Notes: a model not told the origin generated them from the sequence alone. A DNA stretch of 33,427 nt from Desulfosarcina sp. (GCA_029288035.1 JARFPZ010000582.1:1-33427), one strand, 5' to 3'. Counted from the first letter of the stretch, positions 3,252 through 33,421 are shown. Made by a program: numbers and translations.

Positions 3252-4712
3252 TTACCCTTTCCCTGCGATCGCTTTTCCCAGGTTCGATGCATTGGTTTCT
3301 GCGGACTTGACATCTTTGATAATGCGTCCATCAAAAAAAACCAGAATTCGATCCGCTACCATCAGGATTTCATCGAGCTCGGAGGATGAAAAAATAATAC
3401 TCGTTTGATTGAGACAATATTTTTGAAGATGCTGCCAGACCCAGTTCACGGATTCCATATCCAGGCCCCGGGTCGGATTCTCCAGCAGCAGCAACACCGG
3501 ATCCATTGGTAAAAAGGAAAGCAGCAGTCGCTGCTGGTTACCGCCGGATAAAGCATCTACCTGGGAATCAGGTAAGCCTTTTATTCGAAAACGTTCGATG
3601 CGTCGGCCGGCCAAACGATGGGCCGCCTGCCACTTCACCACAAAGCGATGTTGTTGGGCCTGCAGGGCAAAATGCTCGGTGATGCTCAAGCCGGATATCA
3701 AACCCTCTTCCAGGCGCGATGCCGGCATAAATGTCACCCCACAGCGGTTAAAGGCGTGATGATCCTGATTTTTCATATTCCGGCCCGATAATTGGATGGT
3801 CCCTTTGGTTGGCTGCTTTAAACCACCGGCAATGCGTAAAAACACCCCCTGACCGCTTCCCTCCAGGCCCGCCAAACCAACAACCTCACTCTGACGGACA
3901 ACAATATCACAATCCTTTAATCCGGTACGTCCGCCGCTCCCTGAAATGCCTTTCATCATGAGTATCTCACTGCCCGGCGTTTCCAGGCAACGGGCCGGCG
4001 GCAACGGCGGAGTACCAAACATCATTTCCAGCAATCGATTGGGGTCGAAAGGTTGGTCCATGTCGCCAGTCACTTTGCCCTGACGCATGACGGTAACCTG
4101 ATCGCACAGGGTTTCCACATCTTCCAGCTTGTGGGACACCAAAAGGACACTCTTACCCTCGGCGGTCAGTTTTTTAAGTGAATTAAAAAGAATATCTTTT
4201 TGGGTAGCGGAGATGCCGGTGGTCGGTTCATCCAAAATCAGGACCTGAATCCCCAAAGCCAGAAGTCTTAATAACTCAAGTTGCTGTCTTTCACCAATGG
4301 TCAGGATTTTTATCGGGGTTTCGGGATGCAAAGAAAAGTTGAAGGATTCCGCAAGTTGGAGAAACGCATTTTTAAAATTGTTTTTGTGCCCGGTGAATCC
4401 ACTGGTTTGTCCCAGCATAAAATTGTCCAGAACGGAAAGGAGAGAAAAATCCAGTGGATCCTGATAGAGCATCCCGATCCCGAGCGCCACCGCCTGGGCT
4501 GGATTACGGTAGTGGACCGGTTTGCCGTCTATCAGAATGGACCCGCTGGTTTTCTGACTGAAACCCGCCAGAACTTTCATCAAGGTGCTTTTGCCGGCAC
4601 CGTTTTCGCCCAGAATACCGTGAATGCGGCCGGCGTCGATTTTCAGGTCGACCCCATTATTTGCTTTCACGGGTCCATAGTGTTTGTGGATGTCTTGAAG
4701 CTCTATCCACAT
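3252..4712 (-). CDS. BMP-type ABC transporter ATPase (double nucleotide-binding domain)
   Basis: A 486-residue cytoplasmic ATPase with two fused ABC domains, like YufO/NupO and RbsA. The N-terminal half has Walker A GENGAGKST (about residue 35), signature LTIGERQQ and Walker B VLILDEPT. In the C-terminal half the P-loop is degenerate (GLEGSGQG), as is usual in this group, with signature LSGGNQQR and VLLLENPTRG, where Glu precedes Asn rather than the usual Asp-Glu. It begins 5 bases after the binding-protein stop, so the two are co-transcribed and probably coupled. The permeases follow only after a ~360-base spacer filled with three repeat elements, an unusual gap inside such an operon. Confidence 0.93.
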   Translation of the reverse strand: MWIELQDIHKHYGPVKANNGVDLKIDAGRIHGILGENGAGKSTLMKVLAGFSQKTSGSILIDGKPVHYRNPAQAVALGIGMLYQDPLDFSLLSVLDNFMLGQTSGFTGHKNNFKNAFLQLAESFNFSLHPETPIKILTIGERQQLELLRLLALGIQVLILDEPTTGISATQKDILFNSLKKLTAEGKSVLLVSHKLEDVETLCDQVTVMRQGKVTGDMDQPFDPNRLLEMMFGTPPLPPARCLETPGSEILMMKGISGSGGRTGLKDCDIVVRQSEVVGLAGLEGSGQGVFLRIAGGLKQPTKGTIQLSGRNMKNQDHHAFNRCGVTFMPASRLEEGLISGLSITEHFALQAQQHRFVVKWQAAHRLAGRRIERFRIKGLPDSQVDALSGGNQQRLLLSFLPMDPVLLLLENPTRGLDMESVNWVWQHLQKYCLNQTSIIFSSSELDEILMVADRILVFFDGRIIKDVKSAETNASNLGKAIAGKG

Positions 4713-4717
4713 TGTTT

Positions 4718-5911
4718 TTATTTGGCGCTGCTTTGACCGGTCATTCCTTCCAGAAGCTGACCCATGTACCAGATTTGCTTATCATTGGCCGTCTCACCGG
4801 CTTTGACAAACGTGCTTCCATCCTGGTAGTTCAAAGGGCCCTTGAACAGGTCGATTTTGCCCTGGCCTAAATCGCTGATAAATGCAGTCAACGCATTTTT
4901 AACTGATTCCGAAAGGGCCGGTCCCATTGCAAAACCGATGGCGCTGGTGTCCGCATTATTAATATCTCCCCAGTCCGGTCCCTGCCAATCCCATTCGGAT
5001 TTCCAATTACCAGACATGGCGGCTTTGATGTACTTGACGTATCCCGGACCCCAATTAAAATACGGCACCCCCAGACAGACATCGGATGCGCCGTCACAGG
5101 CGCCCAGGTAATCATAGGGAATGGCCCAAACATTTTTCCCCTGTTGTTTCATTTGCTTGGCCACAACCAAGGCCTCTGTGGTGTCAATGCCGGAGATAAC
5201 GATATCATTACCGGTGTTGTAGAAATTCTGGGCCACCTGGGTGGGGTCGGCCGTCACGCCGGGGATGTTAAACCAGAATCCGATCCAGGTCACCTGAAAC
5301 TTCAAATCTTTCGGATCTTTTTTCAGCACGGTTTCCCAGGCATACTTGGCTCCCAGGTAAGCCGATGCCGCCAGTCGCCGGGTTTCTTCGTTGATCAACG
5401 GTCCAAGATAGCCGATTTTTCCGGTTGTCGTCGTATGCGCCGCAACGAAACCCGCCATCATTTTGCCATATTCCATGCGACCCATCAGGTTGCTAAGATT
5501 TTTGGAGGCCTTTCCCGTCAGCACATCATCACCGGATATATGAATGAAATGCACGTCCGGATGCATCAAGGCCGCTTCACGGGTCCCGTCTTTCATATCA
5601 TCGGAGTTGGCAATAATCAGCTTGGCCCCTTTTTCAATCATGTCATCAACCAATTGAGGGATAGTCACGCCGGGTCGGTCGGCCGGATTCACTTTATCGA
5701 TATAAATCATTTTGGTGCCGGGTAATTTTTCTTCAACATATTTGCCCCCGTCAAAGTGCGCCTGGCTCCAACCATGATCATTGTATGGGCCAACCAGCAA
5801 CAAACCGAATATCATTGGTTTTTCCGCCGCCAAAACAGGCCCTGATGGAGTAAATGCAACCGTACTGAAAAAACAAATGATCGCCATTGCCCAAAAATGC
5901 TTTTTAGCCAT
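4718..5911 (-). CDS. BMP-family ABC transporter substrate-binding protein
   Basis: A 397-residue exported binding protein of the BMP/PnrA-like family that captures ligands in the periplasm for the ABC transporter encoded just downstream. The start at 5911 is chosen because AAAGGAGG lies seven bases before it; the open frame extends further upstream but only into a palindromic repeat. A signal peptide (basic MAKKH, hydrophobic core, cleavage near PVLAA) is evident and there is no lipobox. The mature N-terminus (FGLLLVGPYNDHGWSQAHFD) matches the BMP ligand-pocket strand (G-x-NDxGWSxAH). Known relatives bind purine nucleosides, but other ligands occur, so the substrate is open. A strong promoter-like sequence and repeat copy A form its leader. 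Confidence 0.93.
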   Translation of the reverse strand: MAKKHFWAMAIICFFSTVAFTPSGPVLAAEKPMIFGLLLVGPYNDHGWSQAHFDGGKYVEEKLPGTKMIYIDKVNPADRPGVTIPQLVDDMIEKGAKLIIANSDDMKDGTREAALMHPDVHFIHISGDDVLTGKASKNLSNLMGRMEYGKMMAGFVAAHTTTTGKIGYLGPLINEETRRLAASAYLGAKYAWETVLKKDPKDLKFQVTWIGFWFNIPGVTADPTQVAQNFYNTGNDIVISGIDTTEALVVAKQMKQQGKNVWAIPYDYLGACDGASDVCLGVPYFNWGPGYVKYIKAAMSGNWKSEWDWQGPDWGDINNADTSAIGFAMGPALSESVKNALTAFISDLGQGKIDLFKGPLNYQDGSTFVKAGETANDKQIWYMGQLLEGMTGQSSAK

Positions 5912-5951
5912 ATGAATACCTCCTTTAGTGTATGGGAAATGAGATGTCTCA

Positions 5952-6036
5952 TAAGCGACCACCAGCAGAGCTGGGGGTATGAGGGAGGCTCCTCGAAGGA
6001 GCCGTTGAGCCATGCTCTGCTGGTGATCGCTGATTT
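5952..6036 (-). repeat. Palindromic leader repeat, copy A
   Basis: An 85-base near-palindrome with arms AGCGACCACCAGCAGAGC (5954-5971) and GCTCTGCTGGTGATCGCT (6014-6031), matching 17 of 18. An inner stem GGCTCCT/AGGAGCC lies between them. Copies occur at 10144-10212, 10401-10482 and 32981-33064. Copy A points toward the binding-protein gene and starts a few bases after the predicted transcription start. Confidence 0.85.
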
Positions 6037-6046
6037 GTGCCGTTTA

Positions 6047-6075
6047 TATATAAATAAATGACGGCCCGGGGTCAA
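6047..6075 (-). promoter_or_regulatory. Sigma-70-type promoter of the BMP transporter operon
   Basis: On the minus strand, TTGACC (6070-6075) and TATATA (6047-6052) are 17 bases apart. Transcription would start near 6040, so the palindromic repeat A would form the first ~85 bases of the mRNA leader. Confidence 0.55.
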
Positions 6076-6239
6076 GAAAGAAGAAAGACCGTTAAAAAAA
6101 CATTTCTCCTTATCAAGCGTTTCTTGTTGACTTTTACGATATACTATGATGGATAAATTCTTTTAATGATTCGAAGATTGTTATATAGGTTAAAGGATTC
6201 AGAGTCCAATATTCCCGGTTGAAAAAAAGGAGGCACAAA

Positions 6240-28183: not shown

Positions 28184-28210
28184 TTGACAGTTATTATTCT
28201 GTCATATGGT
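28184..28210 (+). promoter_or_regulatory. Operator and promoter of the toxin-antitoxin operon
   Basis: TGACAG and CTGTCA form a perfect inverted repeat with an 8-base centre (28185-28204). It overlaps a consensus -35 TTGACA (28184-28189), as expected for autorepression by an antitoxin; a -10-like TATGGT (28205-28210) follows after 15 bases, a short spacing. Confidence 0.5.
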
Positions 28211-28264
28211 GGTTTGGTATTTATATTTCGCCAAGTATTACCAGTGGAAAAAAGGGAGATTACC

Positions 28265-28672
28265 ATGGAAGAGATCAGAAGCATTAAAGTTAAAACCAAT
28301 AATTTAAATGAAATGATCAGTATGATCAAAAAAGGCCTGCCGGCCGAGACGGTCGTCACCCTTTCCACCTCTCTTGATATGTCCATCAAAGCAACTGCTG
28401 AACTCACCAAAATCGCGGAAAGCACTCTGGCCCGGCGCCGGCGGGAAAAAGGCAAATTAAGGGCGGGTGAATCCGACCGGGTTGTTCGAATCGCACGGCT
28501 GCGAGATAGAGCCGTTGCGGTTTTAGAAGAGGAACAACGGGCCAACCGTTGGCTCAAAACACCTTTAAGAGCGCTAAATGGCTGCACCCCATTAGAATAT
28601 GCTGAATCGGAGTTGGGCGCCCAGGAGGTTATGAATTTGCTCGGTCGGCTTGAACACGGTGTCTTTTCATGA
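28265..28672 (+). CDS. Xre/MbcA/ParS-type antitoxin (DUF2384)
   Basis: 135 residues from the ATG at 28265, with GGGAG six bases before. An N-terminal Xre-like helical domain (MISMIKKGLPAETVVTLSTSLDMS) is followed by the MbcA/ParS/Xre C-terminal domain (RVVRIARLRDRAVAVLEEEQRANRWLKTPLRALNGCTPLEYA and EVMNLLGRLEHGVFS), the standard RES antitoxin layout. It binds and silences the RES toxin and normally represses its own promoter; a matching operator is at 28185-28204. It overlaps the toxin gene by four bases (ATGA). Confidence 0.93.
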   Translation: MEEIRSIKVKTNNLNEMISMIKKGLPAETVVTLSTSLDMSIKATAELTKIAESTLARRRREKGKLRAGESDRVVRIARLRDRAVAVLEEEQRANRWLKTPLRALNGCTPLEYAESELGAQEVMNLLGRLEHGVFS

Positions 28673-29136
28673 TTACCGCTTGGCGAATTGTAAAGAAAAA
28701 ACATTCTGCCGGCGCTTTTGATGGAGACGGTGCCAGAACGTACGGGGGCCGCTGGAATAGCCTTGGAACCGCTATGGTTTACACCTCTGACTATTTAGCG
28801 ACAGCCGCTTTGGAATTAATGGTGAACATGATCGATTATTCTGAAATGTTTCAGTACTACGTTCGCTTTAGAGTTGATATCCCTTCCAGCCTGATTACCG
28901 AATTAAAATCTAAAAATATACCGAAAACCTGGCAACAAAGTCCTGCCCCAGCAGACACCCAGACTATCGGGGACGACTGGGTAAAAAATCGGACTTCCGC
29001 AGTACTAAAGACACCCAGTGCCGTGATATCCGAACATCACTCTTATTTACTCAATCCGAACCACAAGGACTTTTCTAAAATTAAAATCAAAAAACCAAGC
29101 CCTTTCAGCTTCGATTCCAGATTGTTAAAGCCCTAA
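28669..29136 (+). CDS. RES-domain toxin
   Basis: 155 residues with the complete RES signature: Arg28 in GARTYGGRWNS, Tyr38 in MVYTSDYLA, Glu49 in TAALELMVN, and Ser117 in LKTPSAVI, followed by HHSYLLNPNHKDF. RES toxins (MbcT, Res, ParT) act in the cytoplasm, most by consuming NAD+ (phosphorylase or hydrolase activity) or by ADP-ribosylation. Starts at the ATG overlapping the antitoxin stop, so the two are translationally coupled. Length is normal and no inactivating change is seen. Confidence 0.94.
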   Translation: MITAWRIVKKKHSAGAFDGDGARTYGGRWNSLGTAMVYTSDYLATAALELMVNMIDYSEMFQYYVRFRVDIPSSLITELKSKNIPKTWQQSPAPADTQTIGDDWVKNRTSAVLKTPSAVISEHHSYLLNPNHKDFSKIKIKKPSPFSFDSRLLKP

Positions 29137-29496: not shown

Positions 29497-30573
29497 ATGA
29501 CGCAAAGCAAAACCAAGGGTGAAAAAAATCGCGAGGACGAGATCGAAGCCGCATCCAATCAAACGCCGAAACAGCCTGAAACTTCAAACGGAAGAGTGGT
29601 GGGTGTCGACATCGGAACCTCAAAAATCGTTTTCTCAGAGAAAAAAAATGGGAACATTGAGTTCAACTCTCAACGCAATGCCTTTATCTCAGTGGATTAT
29701 TCCAAATTCACAGAGAAAATATTGAATCAGAATAAGATAAAATACCATAAGATCAACAATTCCTTGATTGTATTCGGCGATGGGGCCGAAATCTTCGCCA
29801 ATATGCTCAATACAGAAACCCGACGTCCCATGCGCCAGGGTTTGCTGAATCCAAAAGAATCATATTCTGTTGAAATTATTAAAAAAATTCTAAATGAATT
29901 GGTAGAATCCTCTGGGGGTTCTGATTCTAAAATTAATTTTTCCATACCCGACCCGCCCAAAGGTTCCGAGACGGATATCATCTATCATGAAACCGTTCTA
30001 GCGCGTCATCTAACAGAAAAAGGATATACCAGCAGAAGCATTAACGAGGGATTGGCGGTTGTTTTTTCCGAATTGGAAGATGAAAGTTTCACCGGTCTGG
30101 GCATCAGCGCCGGCGGTGGCATGTGCAATGTTTGTCTAGCTTATCTATCCGTCCCGCTCGTCTCTTTCAGTATCAATAAGGGAGGCGATTATATCGACGA
30201 CGCGACGGCCTCCGTCACCGGCACCATCAATACTCGCGTACGAAGTATCAAGGAAAACGGTTTTGATCTCCAAAAAAAGCCTAATAATGATATCGAGGAT
30301 GCCTTACATATATACTATGATGACCTGATTTTGAGTCTGGTAAAAGCCCTCAAAGAAAGCCTTGTTCAGACATCCACCGCGCTAAAGATAGACCGCCCGG
30401 TACCCATCGTCTTAAGTGGCGGCACGGCCAAAGTACGTGGTTTCAAAGAACGATTTGAGCATTTCTTGAAAACCGAGGAAATTCCTTTGGATTTCAGCAA
30501 GGTTCGCATTGCGGAAGATCCGCTCTATGCCACGGCAAAGGGGGCTCTGATCGCAGCCATGAATGAAAATTAG
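29497..30573 (+). CDS. Actin-fold ATPase (MreB/MamK/ParM-like) with altered phosphate-2 loop
   Basis: 358 residues, of which the first ~30 are a charged, disordered tail. The actin/Hsp70 signature is complete in outline: phosphate 1 GVDIGTSK (Asp38), connect-1 region QGLLNPKESYS, SINEGLAVVF corresponding to the E-P-x-A-A catalytic segment, phosphate 2 GISAGGGMCNV (about 202-212), and adenosine motif VLSGGTAKVRG (about 305-315). In phosphate 2 the usual catalytic/Mg-binding Asp is Ser204, while the GGG is kept. It is thus a filament-type or chaperone-type actin-like protein with a possible loss or slowing of hydrolysis. It forms an operon with the membrane amidase-like protein 32 bases downstream. 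The subfamily is not recognised. Confidence 0.8.
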   Translation: MTQSKTKGEKNREDEIEAASNQTPKQPETSNGRVVGVDIGTSKIVFSEKKNGNIEFNSQRNAFISVDYSKFTEKILNQNKIKYHKINNSLIVFGDGAEIFANMLNTETRRPMRQGLLNPKESYSVEIIKKILNELVESSGGSDSKINFSIPDPPKGSETDIIYHETVLARHLTEKGYTSRSINEGLAVVFSELEDESFTGLGISAGGGMCNVCLAYLSVPLVSFSINKGGDYIDDATASVTGTINTRVRSIKENGFDLQKKPNNDIEDALHIYYDDLILSLVKALKESLVQTSTALKIDRPVPIVLSGGTAKVRGFKERFEHFLKTEEIPLDFSKVRIAEDPLYATAKGALIAAMNEN

Positions 30574-30605
30574 AAGAAAGATCGGATTTAATAAATTGAT
30601 CAGAG

Positions 30606-32864
30606 ATGGACACAACTGTCTCCTTAAAATTGCCGCCGAAAAACTATCGGCGAACTATCGAAGAGCTGTCCGTCGTCATCCCTGATCCAGCTTTAAAGCT
30701 GAAATTTCTAAAACAGGCCATCAATGAGCATCAAAAGATATCTGCACCATACAAGCTTTATCCTCCAATTGCCGAAATCACCTTCCGAAAAAGGCTATTG
30801 GATAATGCTGAAAATATTTGCCCCGGTAGTAAAAAGGCTGCGAAACAACTTATCCGCAAAGGCGTCATCTCTGCTCCCGGTAATCGGTGGCGGTGGCTCT
30901 CCAAATTATACTATCTATTTGTTTCAGCAATTCTAATACTCTTTATTTTTAGACTTGGTACAGCGGTTATTCCTTTAGTAAGAAACTTCAATTTCGCCAC
31001 CCTCATTAATTTGAGCGATCAGCAGGCCGAAACAGCAATTACAAAAATTATCATCCGAAAGCCGATACGTTTTTCCCCACGATCCGGGACCGGAAAAAGC
31101 CCGAAATCATTTATTTTCCAATCTGCAAATTATCAAAATGATGCTGAACAGATCTCATGGTATTATAAAAATCCAATATTAATGGCCCTGACGTCTCAAG
31201 AGGTCTCAAACTCCACATCAAAACCAATTACACAAAAGCAGTTATTGCTTTCCCAGACGACTACCAGAGGAGAACATCCGCCTAAATCTGCCGTCAAATC
31301 TGTAAAACATCAGAATGAGCCCGGGCTGGTTATAAGTTATTATAAAAATCCCATTTTGACAGCCCTGACGACTGAGCAAATTAAAAATTCCAGGTCAAGG
31401 CCTATCCCCCGGAAGCCGTTATTATCTTTTCAGCCGCAAAGCAGAGGAAGCCAGAAGCCGTTAACCGACATCAACCCTGCTGACCAGCAAAAAGCATCCG
31501 ATTTGATTATCACTTATTTTAAGAATCCCATTTTGAGGGCCCTGACGTCTCAACAAACAAAAAATTCCAAATCAGGTCCTCCCTTATTGTCTTCTCAGCC
31601 GCAGAACAGGGGAAACCAGCCGCCTTTGCCTGCCATCAAACCTCCAGAACACCAATATGATCTCGAGCCGGCACTGAATTATTTTAAGAACCCTATCTTG
31701 ATGGCCTTGATTTCTAAACAGTTCTTAAATCCCGCCTCGGAGCCTATCACCCAAAAGACGTTGGTGTCTTCTCAGCCGCAGAGTAGTCGAAACCATCTAT
31801 CTCTAACCATCACCGAACCTGCAGAACATCAAAATAAATCTGTGCAGGTTCCCAAATATCTAAAAGATCCCATTTGGTTGGTGGAAAAAACAGCCGATCG
31901 TGAATTTTACAGCAATCGACTGCAGATAATCACAACATACACAATTCCCAACATACCCCGCGAATACTATCGATTCTCCAGGAATTCCAATTATTCGCCG
32001 GCGATCGGCAAGATTACAGACAGGGTTTCAGGTATCGTGTATCATGCCTCGGAAAGCGATCTGTACCCTTTCATGCCGGAGATGAATCACTCGATTCTGA
32101 ATTACAGCAAACGACTGATCAAATATCTCCTGCGCAAAAAGTCCTATCATTATTTCATTGATCGATTCGGGCGTGTCTATCGACTGGTTCAAGAAGACCA
32201 CGCCGCATTTCATGCAGGGAAATCGATCTGGGCAGATGATGAGGCAATTTATCTTAACCTGAACCATGCCTTCATTGGTATTTGTTTTGAGGGCAAAGAT
32301 TTTCAAGAAATCGACACGAAAAAGCAGAAAAAGAACCACCGCGCAAATCCCAAATCTCCCGTCCTTAAACCAACGGGTATCTCATCGTTCAATGAGGCTC
32401 AGCTACGATCGGGGAAAGAGTTGACCGATTGGCTCAGAGTAAAATACAATATTTCCCAGCAAAATTGTGTGCCCCATGCCTTAATTTCAGTCAACACCAA
32501 GCGAATGTTAATCGGTTATCATCTGGATCTATCCCGCGGGTTCCCCTTTGCTAGGCTCGGACTGACTGATAAATACCTGGAACCCTTGCCTTCAATGGTC
32601 GAATTTGGGTTTCGTTATGACAAATATTTTGAAAATATATTCAACGGTAACCTTTGGCGCGGAATTGGTTTCTCTGAGGAAATCTTACGGCGAAGAGCCC
32701 GGAATTCAGGTATGAGTTTTGCTGAATATCGTAATAGTTTGCAGCAAAGATTTACCCGATATAAGGAATGGAATCAAAAATTGGTTAAGAAAAAAGACCA
32801 GCATACAAAAACCTCCCAAAAAACAATGAGCAAAGAAGTTCAGCTGAGCAGACGAATAAGGTAG
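30606..32864 (+). CDS. Membrane-anchored repeat protein with C-terminal amidase-2/PGRP-like domain
   Basis: 752 residues. The N-terminus (1-97) is basic and cytoplasmic; a single membrane helix follows (about 100-122, YYLFVSAILILFIFRLG), then a probably periplasmic region with five copies of a [YF]-[YFL]-K-[ND]-P-I-L-x-A-L motif at residues 186, 245, 304, 359 and 418 (spacing 59, 59, 55, 59), rich in Ser, Gln and Pro. The C-terminal ~270 residues resemble N-acetylmuramoyl-L-alanine amidase-2/PGRP, with His480 in VYHASES, His536 in FHAGKS, and His639 in GYHLDLSRG. The third metal ligand (Asp/Cys eight to ten residues after His639) is not visible, so catalysis is uncertain and a wall-binding role is possible. 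A basic tail ends the protein. The operon partner is the actin-fold ATPase. Confidence 0.82.
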   Translation: MDTTVSLKLPPKNYRRTIEELSVVIPDPALKLKFLKQAINEHQKISAPYKLYPPIAEITFRKRLLDNAENICPGSKKAAKQLIRKGVISAPGNRWRWLSKLYYLFVSAILILFIFRLGTAVIPLVRNFNFATLINLSDQQAETAITKIIIRKPIRFSPRSGTGKSPKSFIFQSANYQNDAEQISWYYKNPILMALTSQEVSNSTSKPITQKQLLLSQTTTRGEHPPKSAVKSVKHQNEPGLVISYYKNPILTALTTEQIKNSRSRPIPRKPLLSFQPQSRGSQKPLTDINPADQQKASDLIITYFKNPILRALTSQQTKNSKSGPPLLSSQPQNRGNQPPLPAIKPPEHQYDLEPALNYFKNPILMALISKQFLNPASEPITQKTLVSSQPQSSRNHLSLTITEPAEHQNKSVQVPKYLKDPIWLVEKTADREFYSNRLQIITTYTIPNIPREYYRFSRNSNYSPAIGKITDRVSGIVYHASESDLYPFMPEMNHSILNYSKRLIKYLLRKKSYHYFIDRFGRVYRLVQEDHAAFHAGKSIWADDEAIYLNLNHAFIGICFEGKDFQEIDTKKQKKNHRANPKSPVLKPTGISSFNEAQLRSGKELTDWLRVKYNISQQNCVPHALISVNTKRMLIGYHLDLSRGFPFARLGLTDKYLEPLPSMVEFGFRYDKYFENIFNGNLWRGIGFSEEILRRRARNSGMSFAEYRNSLQQRFTRYKEWNQKLVKKKDQHTKTSQKTMSKEVQLSRRIR
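31161..31859 (+). repeat. In-frame tandem repeats inside the amidase-like gene
   Basis: Four full units of 177, 177, 165 and 177 bases plus the start of a fifth. The core motif is strongly conserved while the linker diverges, indicating selection for the motif. Confidence 0.9.
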
Positions 32865-33064: not shown

Positions 33065-33145
33065 ATCGATTGCATGGATTCCAAAAGACTGGGGCTCCCA
33101 TTCTTTTTATGCTATGTTCCAAAATTGGGTAATCAGGAAATGAAT

Positions 33146-33421
33146 ATGACAAATACAGATTTGATATACACACTCATTGCCATCGTGGTCCCTTTGGTAG
33201 AGCTGCTTGGAATTCTGGCAGCCGTTCATGCAATCATGAACGCTCGGACCTCCCAGGGCGCAATTGCCTGGGCCATATCATTGATCACCTTTCCGTGGCT
33301 GGCTTTGATTTTATATGCTGTTTTAGGACGCAATAAATTCAAAGGCTATGCTGGCTGCGGATTTTTCCCGCAGCCGCCCGGTTACAATCGAAGATTATAC
33401 CAGGAAATCATTTTTCTTTAA
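33146..33421 (+). CDS. PLDc_N (cardiolipin-synthase-like N-terminal) protein, apparently truncated
   Basis: 91 residues from the ATG at 33146 (AGGAA six bases upstream). Two membrane helices (TNTDLIYTLIAIVVPLVELL and GAIAWAISLITFPWLALILY) and the segment RTSQGAIAWAISLITFPWLA-x-GRNKFKGY match the start of cardiolipin synthases, which normally continue with an Ala-Arg-Arg linker and two HKD phospholipase D domains. After FKGY the sequence departs (AGCGFFPQPPGYNRR) and a stop follows at 33419, seven bases before the window end. A frameshift, a degraded gene or a stand-alone PLDc_N protein are all possible; neither alternative frame gives an obvious continuation. Confidence 0.6.
   Translation: MTNTDLIYTLIAIVVPLVELLGILAAVHAIMNARTSQGAIAWAISLITFPWLALILYAVLGRNKFKGYAGCGFFPQPPGYNRRLYQEIIFL

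Follow-up and report, generated by a model that had tools for sequence, protein, structure and literature searches.

The volactin family takes its name from VolA of Haloferax volcanii (HVO_2015), a protein that influences cell shape and forms dynamic filaments whose tips contact the membrane (PMC10869688). In Bacillus subtilis, the actin isologue MreBH interacts with the hydrolase LytE and distributes it, as described in PMC3817527 with reference to Carballido-Lopez (2006). How actin directs hydrolases in space is poorly understood, because the link between them runs through many proteins in the model systems. We analysed a 33,427-nucleotide stretch of Desulfosarcina sp. DNA (GCA_029288035.1, JARFPZ010000582.1:1-33427; the whole stretch is hereafter the window), in which a volactin-family gene (gene 1) is followed by a gene for a membrane-anchored amidase (gene 2). 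Volactin had been described only from archaea without peptidoglycan, and it is now found in several bacterial phyla beside wall enzymes. Our best reading, held with moderate confidence, is that the pair constitutes a chromosomal two-gene accessory actin system that would position a membrane-spanning wall hydrolase. The pair is probably a cytoskeleton, hitherto undescribed, that steers cell-wall remodelling, because the same gene pair adjoins in several bacterial phyla.

Gene 1 and the volactin family

The two open reading frames (ORFs) lie on the + strand at 29,497–30,573 (gene 1; 358 amino acids) and 30,606–32,864 (gene 2; 752 amino acids), and their coordinates leave a gap of 32 bp (30,574–30,605), as an initial annotation of this DNA had stated. 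Gene 1 matched the Pfam family Volactin (PF25216) with an E-value of 2.7e-83 and a score of 280.6 bits (cut-off 35), the match extending over residues 35–354 (29,599–30,558, + strand) and over profile positions 3–321 of 321. Among 14 control genomes, the sole match to this profile was in H. volcanii. In the AlphaFold2 model (predicted local distance difference test, pLDDT, 87.5), the only disordered part was residues 1–29, which lie in an N-terminal extension of residues 1–34, and a Foldseek search with the model returned MreB, BeeR and MamK with E-values of 1e-14 to 1e-16, EutJ also being among the matches. The product was thus correctly recognised at the outset as an actin-type ATPase. Its comparison with the filament-forming MreB, MamK and ParM holds for the fold; the family is volactin, and none of those three. 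MreB identity was rejected on scores of 25.4 bits with PF06723 (cut-off 27) and 20 with TIGR00904 (cut-off 365.75), and MamK identity on 42.5 bits with NF040964 (cut-off 400); no magnetosome genes were found among the window genes scanned. A salactin was rejected by a model score under the curated cut-off, and BeeR because the sequences matched only weakly (profile E 0.0045).

Gene 1 aligned end to end, with 38.7% identity, with a homologue on the Haloarcula plasmid pNG700 (locus L138, 3,992–5,020), and the two have in common the phosphate-2 motif FTGLGIS-x-G-x-GM. Since the haloarchaeal sequence has the same motif, the serine that it carries in place of the phosphate-2 aspartate of MreB is a family trait. 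This serine would also suit a different account, in which the volactin, as a monomer or oligomer and without forming filaments, acts as an ATP switch that turns the amidase on or off across the membrane, much as FtsEX gates its hydrolases via EnvC. Such a switch would fit the tight one-to-one linkage with a membrane-spanning hydrolase (see below), and some actin-fold proteins, EutJ for example, are not known as cytoskeletal filaments. Against it stand the archaeal homologue, which shares the motif and comes from a family in which VolA, the one member known to do so, polymerises in vivo (PMC10869688), and the best fold matches, MreB, BeeR and MamK, all of which polymerise. We regard the switch as unlikely.

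Four haloarchaeal plasmid records, pNG700 among them, carry volactin homologues that are annotated as hypothetical proteins. Two uncultured huge-phage records, of 485 and 595 kb, carry homologues with 32–33% identity (LR745208.1, locus L139, 5,001–5,966; LR756511.1, locus L140, 5,001–6,002), and no obvious wall enzyme was seen among their immediate neighbours.

Conserved adjacency of the two genes

The volactin profile, run against 84,980 species genomes, gave 548 relatives, of which the best 80 were retrieved. Neighbours were clustered for 98 volactin loci, 79 of them named, with ORFs called by composition scoring. Most of the genomes compared are metagenome assemblies, and where a locus lacks the amidase, a contig end may be the cause. 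The amidase family was the commonest neighbour of volactin, and in 59 of 60 clustered cases it was the immediate neighbour on the same strand. As assessed by tblastn, it was present at 66 of the 98 loci, on the same strand every time, upstream of volactin at 49 and downstream at 17. The upstream position was seen at most of the acidobacterial loci and at the gammaproteobacterial ones, and the downstream position at all loci of Desulfobacterales and some of Acidobacteriota. The Bryobacterales F-183 genome (AP025252) has the pair at locus L113. At the 79 named loci, 62 had the amidase, seven had a transglycosylase in its place, and ten had neither (of these, one is truncated at a contig end and another has the amidase about 6 kb away).

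Because this retrieval was biased to gene-1-like sequences, we tested an even sample of 247 Acidobacteriota genomes. Volactin was present in 10, the amidase in nine and both in eight, and the two genes were adjacent in 8/8 (Fisher p 1.3e-12). In the single amidase-only genome the gene stands at a contig edge; one of the two volactin-only genomes has a PBP1A gene adjoining, and the other has a response-regulator–volactin fusion followed by a MinD/ParA-like ATPase. Among 395 Desulfobacterota genomes the amidase family appeared once, in the window genome, beside volactin. Among 58 relatives, the pair was adjacent in three (G002, G023 and G040). The gene-neighbourhood comparison across Desulfobacterota and other phyla therefore strongly supports the proposal of a single actin-to-wall device encoded by the two genes, as their homologues do stand side by side.

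A tree built from 93 volactins contains a clade of 72, of which 64 have the amidase; gene order had seldom changed, and the gammaproteobacterial copies nested within those of Acidobacteriota. The distance matrices of the two families correlated with r 0.825, a co-variation that lends weak support to the pairing. The conserved adjacency, like the family assignments, the architecture and the conserved residues, is directly established: the pairing is ancient and has been kept side by side across several bacterial phyla with swapped gene order. We considered whether the genes are merely co-inherited, through common regulation or on a mobile cassette, and serve separate roles in wall metabolism. 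The patchy distribution agrees with this idea, and the nesting of the gammaproteobacterial copies suggests cassette transfer. It is nevertheless very unlikely, in view of the adjacency that persists while gene order swaps between lineages, the near absence of the amidase family without volactin, and the conservation of a dedicated cytoplasmic motif on a protein whose enzyme lies outside.

Volactins outside the amidase clade, mainly from Desulfobacterota, often stand beside bifunctional (PBP1A-type) synthases or transglycosylases; at L028 the volactin and synthase genes overlap by 4 bp. At eight acidobacterial loci (L069, L086, L093, L095, L104, L105, L110 and L117; assigned by Pfam for L086 and by clustering for the rest), a transmembrane SPOR-type protein is encoded directly upstream of the amidase–volactin pair, which hints at a possible link to the division site or to denuded glycan, and at L023 an AMIN protein follows the amidase. 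These neighbours show that volactin genes accompany wall enzymes and wall-binding domains generally. They raise the possibility, which we advance tentatively as somewhat short of an even chance, of a widespread, undescribed actin cytoskeleton that is made of bacterial volactins, runs parallel to MreB and has interchangeable membrane-spanning peptidoglycan enzymes as partners. The partner would be the zinc amidase in one clade (Acidobacteriota, Desulfobacterales and some Gammaproteobacteria), and in the other clade a class A synthase or a transglycosylase. If so, one filament family would place wall opening or wall synthesis by exchanging the enzyme behind a short cytoplasmic docking segment.

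The PBP1A-type synthases beside volactin at L028 (3,576–5,807), L132 (5,764–7,986) and L135 (about 3,871–6,090) have a small cytoplasmic N-terminal domain, which had no Pfam match, and a similar small domain stands alone beside volactin at L025 and L048. At the acidobacterial locus L134 (6,251–8,858), the volactin carries a response-regulator receiver domain at its N-terminus, as a fusion, and a MinD/ParA-like ATPase follows; L051 also has a ParA/MinD-like neighbour. A receiver-domain bridge between the PBP1A domain of L028, L132 and L135 and the true response-regulator domain of L134 is not claimed, because comparison of the profiles gave no support for homology (probability 1%). Many non-amidase volactins of Desulfobacterota (L043–L047, L107, L112, L114 and L131) are divergently oriented from a large DEAH-type helicase (HrpA-like, by eye), often with a pentapeptide-repeat-like protein on the opposite side.

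The window is contig C384 of a 6.7-Mb assembly of 689 contigs (completeness 92.9%, contamination 6.7%). The same-genus genome G002 has both genes adjacent again, with 86% identity for gene 1 and 62–67% in matched segments for gene 2; misbinning of the contig is therefore unlikely, and the features of the genes are not a chance pattern. The surroundings are chromosomal and of a housekeeping kind (yidC, mnmE and asnS). A RES/Xre toxin–antitoxin pair (NF049845, NF049844) lies directly upstream of gene 1 at 28,184–29,136; no such pair was found at any other volactin locus examined, so it is not part of the system. Downstream of gene 2, a short ORF at 33,074–33,421 encodes a PLDc_N domain (cardiolipin-synthase N-terminus type), apparently without a catalytic part within the window. 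The toxin–antitoxin pair, the actin fold and the distant homologues on the four plasmid and two huge-phage records could point to a segregation actin of the plasmid or phage kind (ParM/Alp type) that is a chance neighbour of the amidase. This is exceedingly improbable: the locus is chromosomal, no small DNA-binding partner adjoins, no bacterial plasmid match was found, the toxin–antitoxin pair is missing from the other volactin loci, and the conserved linkage to wall enzymes already contradicts it. A ParM/Alp identity was thus rejected on the context, the plasmid search and the nature of the partner, a membrane amidase.

Architecture of the amidase partner

All the parts of gene 2 that had been noticed initially, namely a basic head, one membrane helix, five spaced motifs and an amidase-like domain, were found (all coordinates are on the + strand). 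Topology was judged from hydropathy, and the head was oriented by the positive-inside rule and by the location of the substrate in the periplasm. The predicted cytoplasmic head (residues 1–103; 30,606–30,914) has 20 K/R against 8 D/E. Its description as K/R-rich stands, amended by a conserved motif of the DPxxKLKFL type, here DPALKLKFL at residues 27–35 (30,684–30,710). The pattern (D/N/S)Pxx(K/R)L(K/R)(F/Y)(L/I), applied as a regular expression, occurred in the cytoplasmic part of 51 of 60 partners as against none of the 913 other ORFs of the same loci; the former count is descriptive, because the pattern was written after viewing these partners, and the latter serves as the control. Some partners in Acidobacteriota have a cytoplasmic part of just some 50 residues, with little on that side besides the motif. 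Its conservation makes the head the likeliest candidate for a docking element, with the motif as the proposed site of contact with the filament. A single transmembrane helix is predicted at residues 104–122 (30,915–30,971). Such a helix was present in 57 of 60 partners, and the remaining three are cut at contig ends, so every complete partner has one.

The periplasmic linker between the helix and the amidase (30,972–31,871) is 300 residues long here and 36–247 in orthologues, giving a range of 36–300 within Desulfobacterota. The five YYKNPIL-type motifs begin at residues 186, 245, 304, 359 and 418. The first four (YY/F-KNPIL) correspond to four DNA repeats with 60-nt cores at 31,161, 31,338, 31,515 and 31,680 (31,161–31,739; spacing 177, 177 and 165 nt). 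With the fifth, YLKDPIW (31,857–31,877), the amidase module itself begins (YLKDPIWLVE); the repeats resemble this stretch and probably derive from it. Tandem Repeats Finder reported no array above threshold, because the copies are merely 70–75% alike. The G002 orthologue has four motifs, not five, and among the orthologues examined the repeats were found in the window's genus only. They are best read as a genus-level linker expansion. The repeats were rejected as a core part of the device, as shorter orthologues have none and linkers are as short as 36 residues.

The amidase module (31,875–32,816) consists of an Amidase_2 fold, an N-terminal IWLVE...YSN segment and a C-terminal helical extension; PF01510 matched residues 473–625 with an E-value of 3.8e-16 and 60 bits (cut-off 26). 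Predicted with 39 homologues, the module had a pLDDT of 91.4 and a predicted template modelling score of 0.88, and AmpDh2 and AmiD were its best structural matches (E about 1e-7). The predicted zinc ligands, H480 (32,043–32,045; the first ligand), H624 (32,475–32,477) and D641 (32,526–32,528), were invariant in all 39 amidase domains. Profile comparison aligned H624, D641 and H639 with H151, D161 and K159 of AmiD. In a 23-member full-length set, E562, H639 and C621 were invariant together with the three ligands. Thus, the predicted zinc site is intact, the catalytic residues differ from those of AmpD and AmiD, and amidase activity is likely, not proven.

The loss of the AmpD E116 and AmiD K159 equivalents would be accommodated by a domain that does not cut but grips peptidoglycan as a wall anchor for the filament, comparable to non-catalytic peptidoglycan recognition proteins (PGRPs); tethered anchors require no turnover. 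Anchors usually lose a zinc ligand, however, and here the ligands, E562, H639 and C621 are all invariant. The K159 position varies in active relatives too, being Thr in catalytic PGRPs. We therefore judge the anchor quite unlikely. As to the initial alternative of cutting or gripping, the complete zinc triad makes cutting the more likely of the two, though it is no proof of it.

A proposed actin-to-wall system compared with known systems

Judged by its family and fold, the volactin-family ATPase most likely forms ATP-dependent cytoplasmic filaments. The partner, which is predicted to cross the inner membrane once, may dock on the filament or its tip through DPxx(K/R)L(K/R)(F/Y)(L/I) in its short cytoplasmic head, as motif conservation and gene linkage suggest. 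The periplasmic zinc amidase, judged by its fold and intact zinc triad, would then cut the N-acetylmuramoyl-L-alanine bond where the filament puts it. The filament would in this way set the place and time of wall opening, for local shape change, widening or division, and the linker would set the reach, which differs with the lineage. Filament formation in bacterial cells, binding by the head, cutting of the wall and the role in the cell are all inferred.

Several observations weigh against this proposal. Linkage and co-inheritance point to a functional connection and are not proof of contact, and the correlation of the distance matrices partly reflects shared species history. Ten of the 79 named volactin loci have no amidase or synthase nearby. 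The system is patchy, as one of seven other same-genus genomes (most of them incomplete) has the pair, and hence dispensable; this patchiness suggests a conditional role. With serine at the phosphate-2 position, ATPase behaviour may differ from that of MreB. The AmpD E116 position is C560 here (the invariant E562 is two residues on) and AmiD K159 is replaced by H639, so that catalysis is less than certain. Finally, the window genome already has two full-length canonical MreBs (G000:C311:4991-5974 and G000:C206:9248-10228), so the volactin would be an extra system.

The pair suggests a cytoskeletal system in Acidobacteriota, a group with little-studied shape control. A two-protein pair, with a membrane-spanning hydrolase and a nine-residue candidate docking motif, would make the actin-to-hydrolase question directly testable. 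No paper on bacterial volactins or on the volactin–amidase pair was found in a literature search that covered few subscription papers and no preprints; it returned work on archaeal volactin, BeeR, FcmB and MreB only, consistent with the initial impression that no system with this pairing had been described.

Among the described systems, H. volcanii VolA (PMC10869688) belongs, well over the Pfam cut-off, to the same family as gene 1 and has a role in cell shape. The bacterial genes differ in adjoining wall enzymes, and the gene 1 product starts with a disordered stretch of 34 residues; the archaeal host lacks peptidoglycan, so an amidase partner would not be expected there. BeeR of Verrucomicrobiota (PMC11929497; PDB 8R2N; Foldseek E 7e-15) has the actin fold and a disordered N-terminal extension of 30–50 residues, but no membrane partner has been described for it and its sequence match to gene 1 is weak. 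E. coli AmiD and P. aeruginosa AmpDh2, the best structural and profile matches of the amidase module, share its H, H, D zinc-ligand pattern; they have no known cytoplasmic part or actin partner, and K159 is His in gene 2. The MreB–RodZ (Rod) complex likewise links an actin filament to wall enzymes via a single-pass membrane protein, whereas gene 1 scores under the MreB Pfam cut-off and no mreC or mreD adjoins. The nearest functional precedent is MreBH–LytE (PMC3817527), an actin isologue placing a peptidoglycan hydrolase. There, the actin is an MreB isologue and LytE is a different, secreted hydrolase; in the window pair, the hydrolase itself is predicted to span the membrane, the actin is of the volactin family, and the two genes are paired.

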